A DNA stretch of 57,798 nucleotides, taken from the NCBI GenBank assembly GCA_902781505.1, contig CACZJL010000011.1, forward strand, positions 1 through 57,798, given 5' to 3'. This DNA comes from an uncultured Lachnospiraceae bacterium. Its GTDB lineage: Bacteria; Bacillota; Clostridia; Lachnospirales; Lachnospiraceae. Under the pieces are notes generated by a model. That model was not told where the DNA came from and did no database searches. It saw only the letters and a list, made by a program, of their open reading frames with translations. This document shows, piece by piece, positions 4,639 through 57,798 of this stretch; the first letter of the stretch is position 1, and each line of letters opens with the position of its first letter. The translations under genes were made by a program, and so were the position numbers.

Positions 4639-5121
4639 ATGGGGATAAACAGTTCACCGTTTGATAAATTCTATCCGGGTGGGGAGTTGGTCAAAACGAG
4701 TCGTGAGGTATATGGTTACTACAATGGTGCCTATATCTGCGTAAACAATCCTGTACCGGGTATTTACAAAAACTGTCAGGTTAAGGTTGCAGTGAGCAAG
4801 CTTTCAGATCTCGCTATCAGCGAAGTGAAGGAAGCACTTGCTGCTGAATCTGGCCTGAAAAGATATTATTTATCATGCGATATGAAAGAACATTCTGTTA
4901 CGGTAACGTTAAAGCAATGTCTGACACCTATCGAAACAGTGCGCCATCTGCAGGAAGCCACGGATCTGGTAATCGGCGTGTTGGAGACAAGAGGGGTCTC
5001 TTCCGGCTGTGAAATCTGTGGAACTCCTGGAGAAGTATCGTTTGAACAATTAAGGGAAGATGCGGTTCGAACCGCTCTCTGCCCGGCATGTCTTGCCGGA
5101 ATGAAGAGAAAGAAAAATTAA
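4639..5121 (+). CDS. Unknown protein with paired CxxC motifs, paralogue A
   Basis: I do not recognise a named family. The 160-residue product carries REVYGYYNGAY near the N terminus, an internal conserved KEHSVTV segment, and two CxxC pairs (CEICG and CPAC) about 30 residues apart near the C terminus, suggesting a zinc-binding knuckle. It aligns end to end with the first 160 residues of the next gene, so the two are tandem paralogues. The ATG at 4639 is preferred to GTG 4633 because AGAGGGA (4626-4632) has proper spacing to it. There is no signal peptide. Confidence 0.8.
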   Translation: MGINSSPFDKFYPGGELVKTSREVYGYYNGAYICVNNPVPGIYKNCQVKVAVSKLSDLAISEVKEALAAESGLKRYYLSCDMKEHSVTVTLKQCLTPIETVRHLQEATDLVIGVLETRGVSSGCEICGTPGEVSFEQLREDAVRTALCPACLAGMKRKKN

Positions 5122-49760: not shown

Positions 49761-51722
49761 ATGGCGAAAAAAGCAGCAAAGAAAACAACATCAAAGAAGA
49801 TGCAGGCCGTGGAGAAGAAGCCGCAGGCCGCAGCGCCGAAGGTGGATCCTTTCATTACAGAGTTTGATGCGTACCTGTTCGGACAGGGCACGCACTATGA
49901 AATCTATAATAAGATGGGTGCACACCCTTGCGTAAAAGACGGTAAGGAAGGCGTGTACTTTGCCGTGTGGGCACCGACAGCGAAAGAAGTCTACATCGTG
50001 GGTGACTTCAACGACTGGAAGGCCTATGGCTATGATATGAGCCTGGTCAACGACGGCGGCATCTATGAGAGATTCGTGCCGGGTGCGAAGGTGGGCCAAA
50101 ACTACAAGTTCCTCATCATTGCAGCAGATGGCAGGGCGCTTTATAAGGCCGACCCATACGCGAATGCAGCGCAGCTGCGCCCGGATAATGCATCCGTCAT
50201 CACCGATTTGAGTGGATTTGCCTGGGGCGATGAGAAGTGGGTCGAAGAAAAGAAAAAAGAAGACCACTTAAACGTTCCGGTCAACATCTACGAGTGCCAC
50301 TTGGGTTCCTGGAGAACCAAGGACGACGGCACCGAGTACGGCTTCATGAACTACCGCGAAATCGCGCCACAGCTTGCCGAATACGTGAATAAGTTAAACT
50401 ACACCCATGTCGAACTCATGGGCATTGCAGAATATCCATTTGACGGCTCCTGGGGCTATCAGGTAACCGGCTACTATGCACCAACCGCCAGATACGGCAC
50501 GCCGAAGGACTTCATGTACTTCGTCAATTACATGCACGAGCAGGGCATCGGCGTAATCTTAGACTGGGTGCCGGCGCATTTTCCAAAGGATGACTTCGGC
50601 CTCGCGAACTTCGACGGCTCCTGCGTTTACGAGTATGCGGACCCGAGAAAGGGCGAGCATCCGGACTGGGGCACAAAGGTGTTTGATTACAGCAAGAACG
50701 AGGTGATCAATTTCCTTGTGGCAAATGCCATGTTCTGGGTGGATCAGTACCATGTAGACGGGCTGCGTGTTGATGCGGTTGCGTCCATGCTGTACCTGGA
50801 TTACGGCAGAACAGAGGGCAACTGGATTCCAAATAAGTTTGGCGGAAACGGCAACTTAGAGGCAATCAGCTTTTTAAAGCATGTCAATTCCCAGTTAAAG
50901 GAGCGTTTTCCACAGGCAATCACGATTGCAGAGGAATCTACTGCATGGCCAAGAGTTACGGGAGACCCGAATAACGGCGAGTGCCTGGGCTTCACATTTA
51001 AGTGGAACATGGGCTGGATGCATGACTTCTTAGAGTACATGAAGCTCGATCCGTATTTTAGAAAGTTTAATCATAACAAGCTGACATTCTCTACAATGTA
51101 TGCATATTCCGAGAGGTTCTGTCTGGTTCTGTCACATGATGAGGTGGTTCACTTAAAGTGCTCCATGCTTGGCAAAATGCCTGGTGACAGAGATGATAAG
51201 TTCGCCAATCTGATGCTTGGATACGCGTATATGTGCGGTCATCCGGGCAAGAAGCTTCTGTTCATGGGCCAGGAATTCGGCCAGTGGAACGAGTGGAGCG
51301 AGGCGCATCAGCTTGACTGGTATTTATGCGAAGACGAATGCCACCGGAACCTGCGCGACTGGGTCGGCAAGTTAAATGGCCTGTACAAGAGTTATCCGGC
51401 GCTTTACGAAACCGATTTCACACCGGAAGGCTTCCAGTGGATCAACGCAGATGACAAGGACAACTCCGTCTATCGTTGGGTTCGTAAGTCAAAGGACGGC
51501 AAGAAGAACCTTCTCTTCGTCTTAAACTTCACTCCGGTGGAACGCAAGAACTTCCGCATCGGCGCGCCAATCAAGGGTGAATACAGACTCGTCCTTTCCA
51601 CAGACGAAACCATGACAAAGACCCTCAAGACCGACGATTGTTACTGCGACGGCTTTGGCGACTCTCTCATCATCGACCTCCCGAAGTACGGCGTTGCAAT
51701 TTATGAGTACGGTTACATTTAA
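49761..51722 (+). CDS. glgB: 1,4-alpha-glucan branching enzyme
   Basis: GlgB introduces alpha-1,6 branches into glycogen. The 653-residue protein has a CBM48-like N-terminal domain (about 60-150, YFAVWAPTAKEVYIVGDFNDW), the GH13 catalytic barrel with GLRVDAVASM (nucleophile Asp338), IAEESTAWP (acid/base Glu391) and LSHDEVVH, and a C-terminal beta domain. The first 30 residues are an unusual Lys/Ala-rich basic extension resembling histone H1 tails. No other glg gene is in the window. GGGGG precedes the start. Confidence 0.96.
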   Translation: MAKKAAKKTTSKKMQAVEKKPQAAAPKVDPFITEFDAYLFGQGTHYEIYNKMGAHPCVKDGKEGVYFAVWAPTAKEVYIVGDFNDWKAYGYDMSLVNDGGIYERFVPGAKVGQNYKFLIIAADGRALYKADPYANAAQLRPDNASVITDLSGFAWGDEKWVEEKKKEDHLNVPVNIYECHLGSWRTKDDGTEYGFMNYREIAPQLAEYVNKLNYTHVELMGIAEYPFDGSWGYQVTGYYAPTARYGTPKDFMYFVNYMHEQGIGVILDWVPAHFPKDDFGLANFDGSCVYEYADPRKGEHPDWGTKVFDYSKNEVINFLVANAMFWVDQYHVDGLRVDAVASMLYLDYGRTEGNWIPNKFGGNGNLEAISFLKHVNSQLKERFPQAITIAEESTAWPRVTGDPNNGECLGFTFKWNMGWMHDFLEYMKLDPYFRKFNHNKLTFSTMYAYSERFCLVLSHDEVVHLKCSMLGKMPGDRDDKFANLMLGYAYMCGHPGKKLLFMGQEFGQWNEWSEAHQLDWYLCEDECHRNLRDWVGKLNGLYKSYPALYETDFTPEGFQWINADDKDNSVYRWVRKSKDGKKNLLFVLNFTPVERKNFRIGAPIKGEYRLVLSTDETMTKTLKTDDCYCDGFGDSLIIDLPKYGVAIYEYGYI

Positions 51723-51738
51723 ACAGACTTGATCTTCA

Positions 51739-51770
51739 CCCCGCCGGCAGAAATGCCGGCGGGGCTTTTC
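51739..51770 (+). terminator. Terminator after glgB
   Basis: CCCCGCCGGCA (51739-51749) pairs perfectly with TGCCGGCGGGG (51754-51764) around a GAAA loop, then CTTTTCTTT. Confidence 0.92.
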
Positions 51771-51856
51771 TTTCATCAGCAGTTGTTGCATATTTACAGG
51801 TGTCATAGCACATTACGGGGGTAAAAGAGAGAAAACCACAGAAAAAATTCGTTGAA

Positions 51857-51886
51857 GTATCATTTATGAAACACAAAAAGTGATAC
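51857..51886. other. Inverted repeat upstream of the tracrRNA
   Basis: GTATCA and TGATAC, 18 bases apart, mark an A+T-rich stretch. The 51773-52028 interval holds no gene I can support. Confidence 0.3.
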
Positions 51887-52028
51887 ATTGCTATTAAAAT
51901 AAATGGATTACTAATAAGTGGAAAAGGTGGGAATGGTCAGTAATGAGATATGAGCAATAAGCCTAAATTAGTTTCTATAAATCTAGCAAATTTTAAAATA
52001 TGGGGTAGAAATAAAATTACAAATGTGA

Positions 52029-52034
52029 TATAAA
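52029..52034 (+). promoter_or_regulatory. -10 box of the tracrRNA promoter
   Basis: TATAAA; TAGAAA 17 bases upstream is a weak -35. Initiation near 52041 would start the transcript exactly at the anti-repeat. Confidence 0.5.
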
Positions 52035-52040
52035 TATGTA

Positions 52041-52136
52041 TATCATATTATACCAATTGATATTAGGTTACTACAGTAAGGTAGTACACCTAAGAGCTCT
52101 AGCCCCATTCCTTGGAATGGGGCTATCTTTATTTTT
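52041..52136 (+). ncRNA. tracrRNA
   Basis: Bases 52042-52077 match the plus-strand CRISPR repeat at 30 of 36 positions, so this transcript is complementary to crRNA made from the minus strand. The two central mismatches would form the usual bulge in the repeat:anti-repeat duplex. After the anti-repeat come a short hairpin ACTAC/GTAGT around AGTAAG (nexus-like), a linker, and a terminator stem TAGCCCCATTC/GAATGGGGCTA with a CTTG tetraloop (52100-52125), then TCTTTATTTTT. The cas9 ribosome binding site follows directly. Length is about 96 nt. Confidence 0.9.
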
Positions 52137-52146
52137 AGGAGGAAAT

Positions 52147-55100
52147 ATGCAAGAGATTAACTATCGAATTGGTTTGGATATCGGAATTGCTTCTGTGGGG
52201 TGGGCGGCATTATTAAATGATGAACACAATGAACCTGTTCATATTCTTGACATGGGGGTTCGGGTATTTGACAAAGCAGAAAATCCGAAAGATGGCTCTG
52301 CACTTGCTGTGCCAAGGCGTAATAACAGAACGGCAAGAAGAAGGCAAAGACGAAAAAAACTAAGAGTTGCTACTGTAAAGAAAATATGTGAAGACAATGG
52401 TCTCATTCAGATTCAGGAGTTCGATAAAAAACTGGCAACAGGTTGTTGTCCGGATGTATATGAGTTAAGAGTTAGGGCGTTAGATGAAAGAATAAGTGGT
52501 GAAAATTTAGCGCAAATCCTGTTGTATTTAGCGAAGCATCGTGGATTTAGATCAACCAGAAAATTTGAATCAAACAATGAAGAAAATGGTAAGGTATTAT
52601 CTGCAACTGAGGCTAATCGCAAAATTCTTAAAGAAGGCGGCTATAGGACAGTAGGTGAAATGCTGTTTAAAGATGATGCATTTAGGTCATATACGTCTTT
52701 TTCTAATAAAGAATACGTATTAACCACAAGAAATAAAGCTGATAATTATTTACATTCTATTGACAGAGCTTCACTGGTTGAAGAAGTTATTAAGATATTT
52801 GAAGCACAACGTAATTATGGGAATCCATTTGTGACAGAACAGTTCGAGAAAGAGTATCTCCAAATTATGCAAAATCAGAGATCATTTGATTTAGGACCGG
52901 GTCTGCAAGCTAATGGAGTTAAAAGTCCGTATGCAATCAATGGATTTCAAGATAAAGTTGGAAGGTGTACTTTTGAAAAGAATGAATATCGTGCCCCGAA
53001 GGCAAGCTATTCAGCAGAGTGTTTTTCGTTATTAGAAAAAATATCTCATTTGAAGATTAACGATATAAATGGCGATTATCGTATTCTGACATCAGAACAG
53101 AGAAATAATATATTTGAGTTAGCCCATAAACAGAAAGACATTAAATACTCGACTTTGAGGAAACTTTTAGGCTTATCAGAGACGGAACGTTTTAATATGG
53201 TGTCTTACAATGAAAAATTAAAACAGGGTGAGCACAATAAGAGTATAGAGAAAACAGAACGATCAAAATTTTATGAGATGAAAAACTTTCATGAGTTTTG
53301 TAAGGCGTTAAATTTAGAAGAGACAATACCGGATGAGACAACAATTGATTTGTTAGACAAAATATCAGAGATAATAACCGGATTTAAAAATGATGACAGT
53401 AGGATTTTAGAGCTCACTAAATTAGGTATATCGGAACAGCATATTTCTGAATTGCTTAAGTTGTCACCGTCTAAATATATGCATTTATCTATTGTTGCAA
53501 TGAAGAAAATTATACCGGGATTAAAAGATGGGTTGACATATGATAAGGCATGCGAAGCGGCTGGATATGATTTTCGCAGAGATTCGAATAGAGAAAGAAC
53601 GAAATTATTAAAGGGAAATGTGGTTCAAGAAGTACTCAATGATATTACTAATCCAGTGGTAAAGCGTGGTGTTTCACAGTCAATCAAAGTGATAAATGCG
53701 ATTATTTTGAAGTATGGAAGTCCTCAGGCTATCAACATTGAATTAGCACGTGACATGGCTAAAAACTATAAAGACCGTTCTGCTGATGAAAAGAGAATGC
53801 TTAAGAGAGCAGATGAAAATTCAAAAATCAAGGAAGAGATTATTGAATTAGGTTTTGCTAATCCTACAGGGAAAGACATTGTTAAGTACCGATTGTGGAA
53901 GGAACAGCAGGAATTGTGCTTATACACAGGAAAGAGGATTGGAATCTCTGATTTATTTGGTAATTCTTCAACGGTTGATGTTGATCATATTATTCCTTAT
54001 AGTAAAAGTTTTGATGATAGCTATCATAATAAGGTCCTGGTATACGCAGGTGCCAATAGAGAAAAGGGAAACAGAACTCCTTTTGAGTATTTAGGGAATA
54101 CTGATAAATGGAATGATTTTGTTATTCGCACAAATCTATACATTACAGATTATAAGAAAAAACAGAGACTTTTTAAAGAACATTTTACAAAGGAGGAAGC
54201 TTCAGAATTTAAAGAAAGAAATCTGAATGATACAAGATATATAACTAAAACGGTTTATAATTTGATTCGGCAGAATTTATCATTCAAAAACAAAGCAACG
54301 GTAGTTTGTGTGAATGGTTCTATAACTTCATATTTACGAAAAAGATGGGCGCTGCCGGTGAAGGATAGAACAACAGATTTGCATCATTCGGTAGATGCAG
54401 TCGTGATTGCGTGTGTAACACCTGGAATAGTTCATAAAATAACAAAATATACACAGGCGCGAGAAATTGCTAAAAGTAAAGGTTTGGTGATGATAGACGA
54501 AGAAACAGGCGAAGTATTCGATCCAAAGGAATATACCAACAATGAGTGGGATGCAATGTTTGGTGTGAAGCCACCTCTTCCTTGGTCTGCGTTTAAGGAT
54601 GAAATTATAATTAGAACAGGTAAAAAGCCATTAGAATTCATCCTTGCAAGTAGGAAAGTTAACTGTGAATTAAACTATCCTGAATGGATGATGAATGAAA
54701 ACGTTATTAAAGAGATATTTGTGTCTAGAATGCCTCGTCATAAAAACACTGGATCAGTTCACGACGCTACAATAAGAAGTCCTAAGATCTTTGATGAAGG
54801 CTATGTAATATCTAAGGTGCCATTATCAAAACTAAAACTTAAGGCAGGTGAGATAGAGAATTATTACAATCCTGAAAGTGATTTATTATTATATAACGCA
54901 TTAAAAGAACGTTTGATTAAATATGAAAATGATTCTGAGAAAGCTTTTGCAGAACCAATGTATAAACCTAAGTCTGATGGCTCTCGTGGACCATTGGTTA
55001 AGAGGGTTAAAGTCGTTAGTAAGATGACATTAGGAGTACCTGCGGCTTCAGGCATTGCAGCAAATGGAGACATGATTAGAATTGATATTTTCTGCGAAAA

Positions 55101-55500
55101 TGGAAAGTATTATATGGTTCCGATATACGTTGCAGACACGGTTAAGAAAGAGCTACCTAATAGAGCCGTTGTTGCCAATAAACCTCTGACGCAGTGGAAG
55201 GTCATGAATGAGAGTGATTTCGTCTTTTCACTATACCCAAATGATTTGATAATGGTCGCGAAAAAAGGTGGAATAAAGGTCACAAATAATCAGGGACAGA
55301 AAGAAGAAAAAACAGATAAGATTTTTGTGTATTATAACTTTGCGGATATTGCAACAGGATCTATAAAATTTTCGTCTGATGATAATGAGTATAGCGGGAG
55401 ACTTGGAATTCAAAGCCTGCAATGCTTTAAAAAATATACAGTTGATGTGCTTGGAAATATACAGTTGGTAAATAAAGAAAGGAGATGTGACTTTCGATAA
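52147..55500 (+). CDS. cas9: CRISPR-associated endonuclease Cas9 (type II-C)
   Basis: The 1117-residue Cas9 is compact, as in II-C systems. RuvC-I has GLDIGIASVGWA (Asp11), the Arg-rich bridge helix is at about 56-75, RuvC-II has NIELARDM (Glu532), HNH has VDVDHIIPYSKSFDDSYHNKV (His614), and RuvC-III has LHHSVDAVVIA (His747, Asp750). All catalytic residues are present, so nuclease activity is expected. The start is ATG 52147, with AGGAGG at 52137-52142; a frame extension back to 52036 would run through the tracrRNA. Codons are A+T-rich relative to glgB. cas1 overlaps its stop. Confidence 0.97.
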   Translation: MQEINYRIGLDIGIASVGWAALLNDEHNEPVHILDMGVRVFDKAENPKDGSALAVPRRNNRTARRRQRRKKLRVATVKKICEDNGLIQIQEFDKKLATGCCPDVYELRVRALDERISGENLAQILLYLAKHRGFRSTRKFESNNEENGKVLSATEANRKILKEGGYRTVGEMLFKDDAFRSYTSFSNKEYVLTTRNKADNYLHSIDRASLVEEVIKIFEAQRNYGNPFVTEQFEKEYLQIMQNQRSFDLGPGLQANGVKSPYAINGFQDKVGRCTFEKNEYRAPKASYSAECFSLLEKISHLKINDINGDYRILTSEQRNNIFELAHKQKDIKYSTLRKLLGLSETERFNMVSYNEKLKQGEHNKSIEKTERSKFYEMKNFHEFCKALNLEETIPDETTIDLLDKISEIITGFKNDDSRILELTKLGISEQHISELLKLSPSKYMHLSIVAMKKIIPGLKDGLTYDKACEAAGYDFRRDSNRERTKLLKGNVVQEVLNDITNPVVKRGVSQSIKVINAIILKYGSPQAINIELARDMAKNYKDRSADEKRMLKRADENSKIKEEIIELGFANPTGKDIVKYRLWKEQQELCLYTGKRIGISDLFGNSSTVDVDHIIPYSKSFDDSYHNKVLVYAGANREKGNRTPFEYLGNTDKWNDFVIRTNLYITDYKKKQRLFKEHFTKEEASEFKERNLNDTRYITKTVYNLIRQNLSFKNKATVVCVNGSITSYLRKRWALPVKDRTTDLHHSVDAVVIACVTPGIVHKITKYTQAREIAKSKGLVMIDEETGEVFDPKEYTNNEWDAMFGVKPPLPWSAFKDEIIIRTGKKPLEFILASRKVNCELNYPEWMMNENVIKEIFVSRMPRHKNTGSVHDATIRSPKIFDEGYVISKVPLSKLKLKAGEIENYYNPESDLLLYNALKERLIKYENDSEKAFAEPMYKPKSDGSRGPLVKRVKVVSKMTLGVPAASGIAANGDMIRIDIFCENGKYYMVPIYVADTVKKELPNRAVVANKPLTQWKVMNESDFVFSLYPNDLIMVAKKGGIKVTNNQGQKEEKTDKIFVYYNFADIATGSIKFSSDDNEYSGRLGIQSLQCFKKYTVDVLGNIQLVNKERRCDFR

Positions 55501-56396
55501 TGGGGTATCGAAATATCAAAATAGATTCAAATGCTGTGCTTTGTATAAAAAATGCTCAGTTGTTAATAGGTGATTTTTCTGTTCCACTTGAAGATATTAA
55601 CTGTTTGCTAATTGAGAATGAGAATGTAAAACTATCAAGCTATTTGATTCAAAAATGCGCTGATTATGGCATCCCAATATACTGTTGCAATGAAAAACAT
55701 CTTCCTAATTGCGTTCTTGTTCCTTTTGAGAAAAATTCGCGTCATTTGAGTATATTGAGATTGCAGATAGATGCTTCTAAACCTTTGAATAAGCGGATAT
55801 GGCAATCAATTATCAAAAGAAAAATCAAAAACCAGGCGTGTTGTCTAAAATGGAACAATTTGGATGAATATGAACAGTTAGAAAAAATGGGTGATTCTGT
55901 ACAATCTGGGGATAAAAGCTATGTAGAGGCAAAAGCTGCAGCTTATTATTTTCGTGTTCTTTTTGGAAGTGGATATTCCAGAAGAGAGGAAACGGTAGTT
56001 AACGCCGCTATGAATTATGCTTATGCGATTGTACGAGGAGTTATAGCACGAACGTTAGTGATACACGGGTTAGAACCATCATTAGGAATAAATCATTGTA
56101 GCGTACAGAATAATTTTAATCTTGTCGATGATTTTTTAGAACCGTTTCGTCCAATGGTGGATATGGTTATCATGGAAAATATTGAAAGCATTAGGAGTGC
56201 GGAATCTCTTACATCGGAGCATAAAAGAACCTTGTTAAGTGTTCTAACTTTAGATATGTTAATTGATGGAAGGAAAGAAATCATTAATAACTGCATCGAT
56301 ATAATGGTTGAGAGCTATATAAGATCATTAAGAAAAGGGGAAATGGTATTGTTAACTCCTCAGATTATAGGTGTTAGCAGACATAATTATGAGTGA
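55500..56396 (+). CDS. cas1: CRISPR integrase Cas1
   Basis: This 298-residue protein is the catalytic integrase of spacer acquisition. Metal ligands are visible: Glu143 in YVEAKAAAYYF, His199 in GINHCSVQNN and the acidic VDDFLEPFRP at about 209-218. An N-terminal beta domain and a C-terminal helical domain are of normal length. The start codon overlaps the cas9 stop (TAATG), with AAAGGAG upstream, so translation is coupled. Confidence 0.96.
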   Translation: MGYRNIKIDSNAVLCIKNAQLLIGDFSVPLEDINCLLIENENVKLSSYLIQKCADYGIPIYCCNEKHLPNCVLVPFEKNSRHLSILRLQIDASKPLNKRIWQSIIKRKIKNQACCLKWNNLDEYEQLEKMGDSVQSGDKSYVEAKAAAYYFRVLFGSGYSRREETVVNAAMNYAYAIVRGVIARTLVIHGLEPSLGINHCSVQNNFNLVDDFLEPFRPMVDMVIMENIESIRSAESLTSEHKRTLLSVLTLDMLIDGRKEIINNCIDIMVESYIRSLRKGEMVLLTPQIIGVSRHNYE

Positions 56397-56709
56397 ATTT
56401 ATGCGAATTTTATTATTTTTCGACCTTCCAACAAAAGAAAGTGATGAAAGAAAAGCTGCGTCTAAGTTTCGCAAATTCCTTAAAGATGATGGATATCATA
56501 TGATGCAATGGTCGGTATATTCAAGAATATGTAATGGAACAGATGCTGTTTTTATGCATGAAAGTAGAGTGAAGAGGAATTTGCCACCAAAAGGTTCTGT
56601 AAGAATACTGATTTTAACAGAGAAGCAATTTGAATCGATGAGAATAATGCTTGGAGAGCGAACGGTTGATGATACGTGTAAGTCAACTGAATTAGTTGAT
56701 GTTTTTTGA
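56389..56709 (+). CDS. cas2: CRISPR adaptation protein Cas2
   Basis: The 106-residue ferredoxin-like protein forms the scaffold dimer of the Cas1-Cas2 integrase. MRILLFFDLPT carries the conserved N-terminal Asp, followed by YHMMQWSVYSRIC and PPKGSVRILILTEKQF. The start overlaps the cas1 stop (ATGAGTGA at 56389); ATG 56401, which would give the more usual MRILL start, is an alternative. No csn2 or cas4 follows, which defines the system as type II-C. Confidence 0.95.
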   Translation: MSEFMRILLFFDLPTKESDERKAASKFRKFLKDDGYHMMQWSVYSRICNGTDAVFMHESRVKRNLPPKGSVRILILTEKQFESMRIMLGERTVDDTCKSTELVDVF

Positions 56710-56765: not shown

Positions 56766-56802
56766 AAAAGGCCAGAAGACCATTAGTCTTCTGGCTTTTC
56801 TT
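56766..56802. terminator. Bidirectional terminator between cas2 and the array
   Basis: GCCAGAAGAC (56771-56780) pairs perfectly with GTCTTCTGGC (56786-56795), with T-runs on both strands. It ends the cas operon and the convergent crRNA precursor, and leaves no room for a plus-strand array promoter. Confidence 0.92.
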
Positions 56803-56809
56803 ATTCCCT

Positions 56810-57699
56810 ATCATATCATACCAATAAATATTAGGGAACTACAGCGAAAATGCGTTAGCCATCATTACGGAGTTGATCATATCATACCAATAAATATTAG
56901 GGAACTACAGCTGACTTCATCAGATATGCATGTTTCCGTATATCATATCATACCAATAAATATTAGGGAACTACAGCAAAGTTCATTCTACGAATATCAT
57001 TCTTCATATCATATCATACCAATAAATATTAGGGAACTACAGCTGAAAACCATGCAGTAAAATCTACGTAATCATCATATCATACCAATAAATATTAGGG
57101 AACTACAGCCGGGATATTCTCGATTCCCCCATTAATGTATCATATCATACCAATAAATATTAGGGAACTACAGCCGTGTATGTCTTAAGAGTGCCGTCAT
57201 TTAAATCATATCATACCAATAAATATTAGGGAACTACAGCTCGTTATGCAAACTTGGAAAAAGTTTAAATATCATATCATACCAATAAATATTAGGGAAC
57301 TACAGCTCAAACGCAAAATACATGTCGGAATCGTAAATCATATCATACCAATAAATATTAGGGAACTACAGCTAATATCGCGTTTAATATTTTAGAGAAT
57401 GGATCATATCATACCAATAAATATTAGGGAACTACAGCCCACGATCGCGGTACAACTTCCCGATATTAATCATATCATACCAATAAATATTAGGGAACTA
57501 CAGCGCAGTCAGCTTATTTAATTCAAGATATGGTATCATATCATACCAATAAATATTAGGGAACTACAGCCGATTCAGCGAGAACCTTTGTAGCCTTATC
57601 ATCATATCATACCAATAAATATTAGGGAACTACAGCACGTAAATGTAAATAGTGTGCCTACAGTTTATCATATCATACCAATAAATATTAGGGAACTAC
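56810..57699 (-). CRISPR. Type II-C CRISPR array, 14 repeats and 13 spacers, transcribed on the minus strand
   Basis: The 36-bp repeats start at 56810, 56876, 56942, 57008, 57074, 57139, 57205, 57271, 57337, 57403, 57469, 57535, 57601 and 57667. Spacers are 30 bp except the fifth (29 bp). In crRNA sense the repeat begins GCTGTAGTTCCC and ends GGTATGATATGAT, a form common in type II. The first 13 repeats appear identical. The last (57667-57699) retains 33 of 36 bases and is cut where an IS-like sequence begins. Minus-strand transcription is supported by the tracrRNA sense and the terminator placement. Confidence 0.97.
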
Positions 57700-57798
57700 T
57701 ATGATTGTCAATTTGAAACTGAGCCACGCGCTGATTTGATTTTGAGCCACCTAACGCTAGCTTGAAAGTGAGCCACCCTTTTTGCGGCCTTTCTTTGT
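57700..57798. mobile_element. Terminus of a probable IS21-family insertion sequence
   Basis: Three related 16-bp direct repeats, TTTGAAACTGAGCCAC (57712-57727), TTTGATTTTGAGCCAC (57735-57750) and CTTGAAAGTGAGCCAC (57761-57776), are the kind of multiple terminal repeats seen at IS21-family ends, where the transposase binds. The element begins at or within a few bases of 57700, replaces the last 3 bases of the repeat, and continues out of the window. No istA or istB sequence is visible, so the family call is from the end alone. Confidence 0.65.

Follow-up and report, generated by a model that had tools for sequence, protein, structure and literature searches.

Autoregulation of CRISPR-Cas9 by an extended trans-activating CRISPR RNA (tracrRNA), called tracr-L, was reportedly described by Workman in 2021 in type II-A Streptococcus pyogenes. 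Short RNAs derived from riboswitches and attenuators are made by premature termination, and the messenger RNA (mRNA) by read-through, from one promoter. Here, we describe a type II-C CRISPR-Cas9 locus at the right end of a 57,798-nucleotide (nt) stretch of DNA from an uncultured Lachnospiraceae bacterium (assembly GCA_902781505.1, contig CACZJL010000011.1; this whole stretch is hereafter the window). Four lines of evidence, namely the anatomy of the locus, the lack of a sigma-A-like promoter in the gap between tracrRNA and cas9, the recurrence of this layout among relatives and the near restriction of gap promoters to loci with a long gap, suggest that transcription past the tracrRNA terminator is probably the main source of cas9 mRNA, whose leader would then be tracrRNA itself. 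Such an arrangement would differ from leader-derived small RNAs in that the short RNA is an obligatory cofactor of the protein encoded by the read-through mRNA, and in that no switch was identified.

As far as the accessible text of the reports cited here goes, the closest described CRISPR systems belong to types II-A and II-C. In type II-A systems, a long tracrRNA controls the cas genes (PMC11417352; PMC8616872), and in S. pyogenes this RNA guides Cas9 to a separate cas promoter, which is repressed in trans by Cas9 together with the long tracrRNA (PMC11417352). The window resembles this circuit in that its tracrRNA locus would be tied to control of cas9 expression, but it has neither a recognised cas promoter in the gap nor a guide-like segment, and thus points to a different principle. 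In type II-C systems, the position of tracrRNA before cas9 is already known (PMC7038990, PMC7708072, PMC10281378, PMC9067536). The loci of CcCas9 from Clostridium cellulolyticum (PMC7038990), PpCas9 and DfCas9 (PMC7708072) and EHCas9 (PMC10281378) likewise place tracrRNA before cas9-cas1-cas2, and CcCas9 further resembles the window in having an array read against the cas genes and an extended −10-like sequence in its repeats (PMC7038990). The accessible portions of these accounts hold no discussion of cas9 transcription or terminator read-through. The Bacteroidetes II-C model CRISPRCas_38 places tracrRNA ahead of cas9, typically at a distance of at most 100 bases and at times with an overlap of the cas9 start; it differs in being a structure model, its authors put the overlap down to start misassignment, and the text available proposes no coupling (PMC9067536). 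In Neisseria II-C, a figure marks −10 and −35 boxes in the cas9 promoter region (PMC13431127), indicating that II-C systems outside the set compared here can have their own cas9 promoter. The literature that we searched, mostly non-subscription, yielded no description of cas9 transcription by tracrRNA read-through, which is not proof of novelty.

The tracrRNA terminator abuts the cas9 ribosome binding site

The type II-C tracrRNA of the window occupies about 52041–52136 on the plus strand, the strand assigned to it by a first-pass annotation of the DNA letters alone. Its anti-repeat (52042–52077, plus strand) forms a duplex with the 36-nt CRISPR repeat read on the minus strand (−43.2 kcal/mol), a complementarity that, with the gene order cas9-cas1-cas2 then array and the lack of csn2 and cas4 in the interval that follows cas2, marks the system as type II-C. 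In the predicted cofold with bound CRISPR RNA (crRNA), the anti-repeat is followed by a nexus hairpin (AGGU/ACCU, 52079–52091, plus strand) and by AGAG (52093–52096, plus strand), the 5′ strand of a lower stem that pairs with CUUU at 52127–52130. The terminator hairpin, TAGCCCCATTCC-TT-GGAATGGGGCTA (52100–52125, plus strand), has arms of 12 nt that an inverted-repeat search finds 100% complementary, and it runs into the 11-base T-tract TCTTTATTTTT (52126–52136, plus strand; 9 T of 11), whose bases 2–5 double as the 3′ strand of the lower stem. A G+C-rich stem (−18.1 kcal/mol) followed by such a tract (tail score 3.09) fits the form of an intrinsic terminator. Directly after the last base of the T-tract stands the cas9 Shine-Dalgarno sequence AGGAGG (52137–52142, plus strand), ahead of the start codon ATG at 52147 of a 1117-amino-acid Cas9 (52147–55500, plus strand; TIGR01865, 1.1e-243; HNH_4, RuvC_III and Cas9_a). 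The first-pass observation of a perfect stem and U-tract running to about 52136, with AGGAGG from 52137 and hence a terminator directly against the cas9 ribosome binding site, is therefore confirmed, with coordinates correct to the base.

The same annotation saw no separate promoter between terminator and cas9, and proposed that cas9 mRNA may arise only by read-through and carry tracrRNA at its 5′ end. Both parts find support: neither of two promoter scans, one using a strict sigma-70 consensus and the other a more permissive self-made sigma-A weight matrix, recognised a sigma-A-like site in this interval, and the promoter and gap comparisons below are consistent with read-through. The strict scan returned no sigma-70-like site in 51500–52400 (shuffle mean 2.3); it also misses the tracrRNA promoter, which makes it weak evidence alone. 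With the matrix, the best score for a start between the hairpin loop and the ribosome binding site is 4.2 bits (shuffle p = 0.18), a level reached at about 1.2% of plus-strand positions of the window. The predicted tracrRNA promoter, TAGAAA-17-TATAAA with a TG extension (52006–52034, plus strand; start near 52041), is the best plus-strand score in 51765–52147. At 6.1 bits, a score equalled or exceeded at 0.34% of plus-strand window positions, it is weak on its own; its −10 lies 71 nt from the hairpin, as compared with a median of 74 over the loci scored and a range of 71–107 for strong sites (central 90%).

We propose that polymerase would start near 52041, that most transcripts would end in the T-tract at about 52126–52136 to give tracrRNA, and that a minority would continue into cas9-cas1-cas2 behind a leader of about 106 nt. 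From the absence of a recognisable gap promoter, tracrRNA and cas9 mRNA are predicted to share promoter and 5′ end. A single promoter would then govern the supply of both tracrRNA and Cas9, in a ratio set by how much the terminator leaks. In its simplest form, this coupling would be a passive, fixed ratio. Active feedback through the cas9 leader is possible but a weaker part of the proposal: the mRNA could be trimmed or masked near the Shine-Dalgarno sequence if its leader paired with crRNA, was cut by RNase III or was bound by Cas9.

Read-through could also begin further upstream, in a longer transcript that starts within 51765–52000 and crosses tracrRNA and its terminator into cas9. About 276 nt lie free between the terminator of the upstream gene and the tracrRNA start, leaving room for such a promoter, but the best upstream plus-strand scores are at most 4.8 bits, and we regard this origin as improbable. 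Such a transcript would still read through the tracrRNA terminator, and the core claim would survive it.

The first-pass annotation further drew a parallel, in principle, to the long tracrRNA of S. pyogenes, and here the sequence does not follow. In a circuit of that kind, known in type II-A S. pyogenes (PMC11417352), the extended tracrRNA would act as a naturally occurring single guide, directing Cas9 against its own promoter. Upstream of the anti-repeat, we find no crRNA-like stretch: pairing there (−14.8 kcal/mol) is no better than in shuffled sequences (mean −15.9 kcal/mol), with 126 of 200 letter-shuffles pairing as well or better, and no separate cas promoter was found between tracrRNA and cas9 as a target. 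A review describes tracr-L as absent from other subtypes, so far as its accessible text goes (PMC8616872), and the 13 spacers of the array, searched against the window only, match it outside the array at no more than 21 of 30 bases. We consider this circuit very improbable here. Self-targeting by a spacer against the window was rejected on the same best match (21 of 30).

Gap length and promoter content across related loci

A comparison set of 78 tracrRNA–cas9 loci, made up of the window (L001) and 77 relatives, places this junction in context. We call a gap short when the hairpin end lies at most 45 nt from the cas9 start, and long above that. The gap is short in 48 of the 78 loci, the window included (median over all 78, 36 nt), and in 18 of these 48, the window among them, the Shine-Dalgarno sequence starts at most 12 nt from the hairpin. 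As a control, we took other intrinsic terminators before a co-directional gene in the same DNA; only 2 of 19 stand 45 nt or less from the gene start (Fisher p = 6e-5 against 48/78). This contrast is a rough one, as genes in the control, drawn from 117 gene pairs, were called mechanically and its terminators had to satisfy a stricter definition than that of tracrRNA.

Were cas9 to carry a promoter of its own as a rule, the short-gap loci should conceal one; the matrix indicates otherwise. A promoter of at least 9 bits starting downstream of the hairpin loop is found in 1 of the 48 short-gap loci (L092) as compared with 15 of the 30 long-gap loci (Fisher p = 4e-7), and 8 of these 15 are TTGACA-17-TATAAT or one base off. 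This contrast survives when the gap limit is set to 35, 45 or 60 and the score threshold to values from 7 to 11. Judged by shuffling (p < 0.05), 3 of 48 short-gap loci have a site, where 2.4 are expected by chance, versus 16 of 30 long-gap loci. The tracrRNA promoter, in turn, is strong in both classes, reaching at least 9 bits in 43/48 short-gap and 24/29 long-gap loci. Nine further loci show the same pattern: cas9 promoters of at least 9 bits occur in none of six short-gap and two of three long-gap loci, and tracrRNA promoters of that strength in all nine. Isolates that show the short-gap layout include Selenomonas ruminantium HD4 (L066, gap 36) and Eubacterium sp. 14-2 (L011, gap 32), and Gemmiger formicilis MCC627 (L044, gap 91) is among the promoter-bearing relatives.

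On a Cas9 tree, made by a quick method with Shimodaira–Hasegawa-like approximate likelihood ratio test (SH-aLRT) support only and with an unusual letter make-up in 27 of 78 rows, the short-gap state needs 18 changes, 16 of them forced by starred branches, and the promoter-bearing state needs 9, of which 7 are so forced. The wiring of cas9 thus appears to have changed repeatedly on this tree, and the short-gap layout does not trace to a single accident that was then kept. Closest to the window on the tree stand L016 and L017, both with short gaps (27 and 18). At L054 (gap 73), a putative cas9 promoter of 12.8 bits has its TTGACA beginning inside the tracrRNA T-tract, which makes this locus a candidate intermediate between the short-gap and promoter-bearing layouts.

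The comparison also bears on a weak promoter that might lie concealed within the tracrRNA gene, towards its 3′ end. TATCTT (52124–52129) could be a poor −10 (4.2 bits) with a start near 52136, just ahead of AGGAGG, giving a leader of about 11 nt. The same hexamer recurs at the stem end in many relatives, and a real precedent exists in group B Streptococcus type II-A, where a cas promoter, P2cas, has been mapped to the tracrRNA 3′ end (PMC12216829, accessible text). In the window, by contrast, no promoter is recognisable at that place: the score carries the shuffle p of 0.18 given above, conservation of the lower stem explains the same hexamer, and the short-gap loci with p < 0.05 are only the three already counted. 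The relatives' promoters of at least 9 bits sit in gaps of at least 65 nt, with L092 (gap 35, 9.7 bits) as the one exception. We therefore regard a hidden promoter as unlikely, yet as the strongest of the competing explanations.

Besides this precedent, several results weigh against read-through as the main source of cas9 mRNA. At 6.1 bits, the tracrRNA promoter of the window is weak by a matrix that gives a short-gap median of 13, and it escapes the strict scan. Half of the long-gap loci (15/30) also lack a recognisable promoter, so the matrix may miss some; it approximates sigma-A, and other sigma factors or unusual promoters escape it. The shuffle p values of short-gap loci are not perfectly uniform (Kolmogorov–Smirnov p = 0.07). 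Had leakiness been under selection, finally, weaker terminators might be expected at short gaps; between short-gap and promoter-bearing loci, neither T-tract scores (medians 2.44 and 2.77, p = 0.09) nor stem energies (p = 0.48) differ significantly, and weaker terminators in short-gap loci were rejected as a feature on these grounds.

Gap lengths also speak to where cas9 coding begins. The frame is open from an ATG at 52036 through the whole tracrRNA to cas9 (ORF 52036–55500, an open reading frame), so tracrRNA might be translated as an N-terminal extension; in Bacteroidetes II-C, an overlap between the tracrRNA model and a predicted cas9 start was seen in 50 of 599 cases, where the authors suspect misassigned starts (PMC9067536, accessible text). 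Yet no Shine-Dalgarno sequence precedes 52036, while a perfect AGGAGG stands before the ATG at 52147. Gap lengths of the 48 short-gap loci spread evenly over the three remainders modulo 3 (17, 17, 14), and the frame is open through the hairpin in only 20 of these loci. We give next to no credence to a start inside tracrRNA. An automatic gene caller could nonetheless place the cas9 start at 52036, given the open frame, and at such loci automated start calls can clash with tracrRNA calls.

Among the long-gap loci with no recognisable promoter, the Roseburia-type loci L004, L008, L009, L010 and L015, and more weakly L002, share a hairpin between the tracrRNA terminator and cas9, a putative leader element. 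Its outer stem varies, its internal loop is UC/UU, its inner stem is CC..GG, and its terminal loop ranges from 4 to about 80 nt; it was judged by eye, and predicted folds show it in only part of the loci.

Folding of the scaffold and the cas9 leader

The lower stem that flanks the terminator hairpin covaries across loci, as AAAG/CTTT in 35, AGAG/CTCT in 7, GAAG/CTTC in 6, ACAG/CTGT in 3 and other combinations elsewhere. In the 73 loci that could be anchored (the anchor demands TC after the hairpin, and 5 of 78 loci that do not fit were left out), the first pair forms in 62 and the second in 66, counts that none of 2000 shuffles reached; the third is always A-T, and the fourth is G-C, its C being required by the anchor. 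Since this stem uses bases 2–5 of the T-tract, the tract is partly paired in the scaffold, and the terminator is at the same time part of the scaffold. Such a constraint on the T-tract may preserve some leakiness of the terminator.

In the predicted read-through RNA (52041–52180), the hairpin persists, with the T-tract now paired to the Shine-Dalgarno sequence and the region of the start codon. The predicted mean openness of the six Shine-Dalgarno bases (52041–52200) is about 0.63, and drops to about 0.44 if the anti-repeat is barred from pairing in imitation of crRNA occupancy, a calculation on one sequence with no control that hints at a modest translational effect of crRNA on the cas9 leader. 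A terminator/antiterminator switch driven by crRNA was rejected, because hairpin and lower stem are identical in the free and crRNA-bound folds up to 52135. Nor do the predicted folds include a pair of mutually exclusive structures, one of which breaks the terminator, as a conditional attenuator would have. What crRNA would change in these predictions is the anti-repeat: the free RNA closes it on the nexus, and crRNA would open it with the terminator unchanged. Within free tracrRNA, this fold spans 52064–52092, where the 3′ half of the anti-repeat is predicted to fold onto the nexus; similar closed anti-repeat hairpins are seen, by eye, in most of 20 loci inspected. The fold possibly represents a state that is closed until crRNA arrives.

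The most extreme layout is that of L070, which rests on one Oscillospiraceae assembly (4851–5003). A perfect TTGACA-17-TATAAT stands in front of its tracrRNA, and the hairpin AACCTCCTGTTG...CAACAGGAGGTT, with no T-run behind it, is followed after 5 nt by the cas9 ATG. The Shine-Dalgarno sequence AGGAGG lies inside the 3′ arm and is predicted to be wholly paired (unpaired probability 0.0). With the ATG so close, a separate promoter could not fit behind the hairpin, and with its Shine-Dalgarno sequence in the hairpin, cas9 is readable only from RNA that begins in or before it. Given the promoter seen, cas9 RNA of L070 would begin with tracrRNA. Its strong stem could mean poor translation.

Implications for type II-C systems

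One curious junction has thus grown into a recurrent layout with a built-in comparison group. We tentatively extend the reading of the window to many type II-C systems, in which tracrRNA might serve as a cis-acting cas9 leader rather than as a gene of its own, with one promoter, a leaky terminator under scaffold constraint that divides transcription between guide scaffold and nuclease, feedback by Cas9, crRNA and RNase III, and L070 as the extreme case; this broader proposal is possible but doubtful. In its feedback form, Cas9, crRNA and RNase III acting on the leader would adjust Cas9 to guide supply, and in the L070 form, a hairpin that hides the cas9 ribosome binding site would leave one RNA to serve as scaffold or message. 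If this holds, a large part of type II-C would tie the dose of Cas9 firmly to the RNA cofactor that it needs, independently of any trans regulator. Such control would be of another kind than the tracr-L circuit of type II-A, and avoidance of excess guide-free Cas9 would become directly testable. It would also follow that cloning such a cas9 without its tracrRNA region would remove its natural promoter.

Assembly of the comparison set

Relatives came from two sources. An alignment of 26 Cas9 sequences was scanned over genome contigs, from which the best 80 of at least 558 confirmed stretches (595 listed) were taken; genome searches added matches in 7 of 397 genomes of the family and 7 of 392 of the order, the window's own included. 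The resulting 96 loci (L001–L096) gave 89 rows, of which 78 were counted. Left out before the 89-row table were L005–L007 (distant Cas9), L088 and L095 (repeats of another locus), and L094 and L096 (N-terminus missing). Dropped from it were L048, L051, L056, L063, L072, L081 and L082 (no recognised tracrRNA terminator, or contig edge) and the duplicates L014, L018, L019 and L089. A promoter-like site lies in the long gap of the dropped L072. Nine loci with a negative motif flag (L058, L059, L062, L064, L076 and L090–L093) were kept by eye, tracrRNA being plain before the hairpin.

The further set comprised 23 loci (L097–L109 and L111–L120) from phylum and class searches and two plasmid records, of which 9 were kept, L104, L112 and L115 by eye against a negative flag. 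The 14 dropped were L097–L102 and L117–L120 (no recognised tracrRNA terminator, N-terminus missing, or no hit), L106 and L108 (identical to L023 and L050), and L109 and L116 (N-terminus missing). Among same-genus genomes, this Cas9 occurs in 1 of 11, the window's own. A plasmid DNA search with the tracrRNA region gave no match, viral contigs gave six distant loci, none with a tracrRNA motif before cas9, and a single-protein scan of genome contigs gave 26 pattern matches, none confirmed.

Other features of the window

A search of solved structures returned Cas9 relatives only. An Rfam search of the window left tracrRNA without a match and found only a tRNA elsewhere, and a further Rfam search gave two sub-threshold matches near 51727–51781 and none on tracrRNA. 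The upstream gene (ORF 49761–51722), which on its translation we take to be branching-enzyme-like, is separated from the tracrRNA unit by its own intrinsic terminator (51739–51764, plus strand), an 11-pair stem with a T-rich tail.

Downstream of cas9 lie cas1 (55500–56396, plus strand; TIGR03639, type II Cas1, 1.2e-80) and cas2 (56389–56709, plus strand; TIGR01573, 1.1e-25). The ORF list of the window has no plus-strand ORF of at least 60 amino acids between cas2 and the array; this interval contains an inverted repeat with a T-tract (56767–56799), a probable operon terminator. The CRISPR array (56809–57701, minus strand) has 14 repeats of 36 nt, the last altered at its end, and 13 spacers of 29–30 nt, and its crRNA would be read on the minus strand. 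In some II-C systems, crRNA promoters lie inside the repeats; here the repeat carries TGGTATGAT, a candidate extended −10, on that strand, at 9.0 bits in the repeats scored with the matrix. A perfect extended −10, TGGTATAAT (7.8 bits), also occurs on the minus strand of the anti-repeat (52047–52055), pointing away from cas9, and is probably inherited from the putative crRNA promoter of the repeat. The altered last repeat is followed by three copies of a TGAGCCAC unit (57700–57798), which resemble a mobile-element end. The contig ends at 57798, and the array may continue elsewhere.

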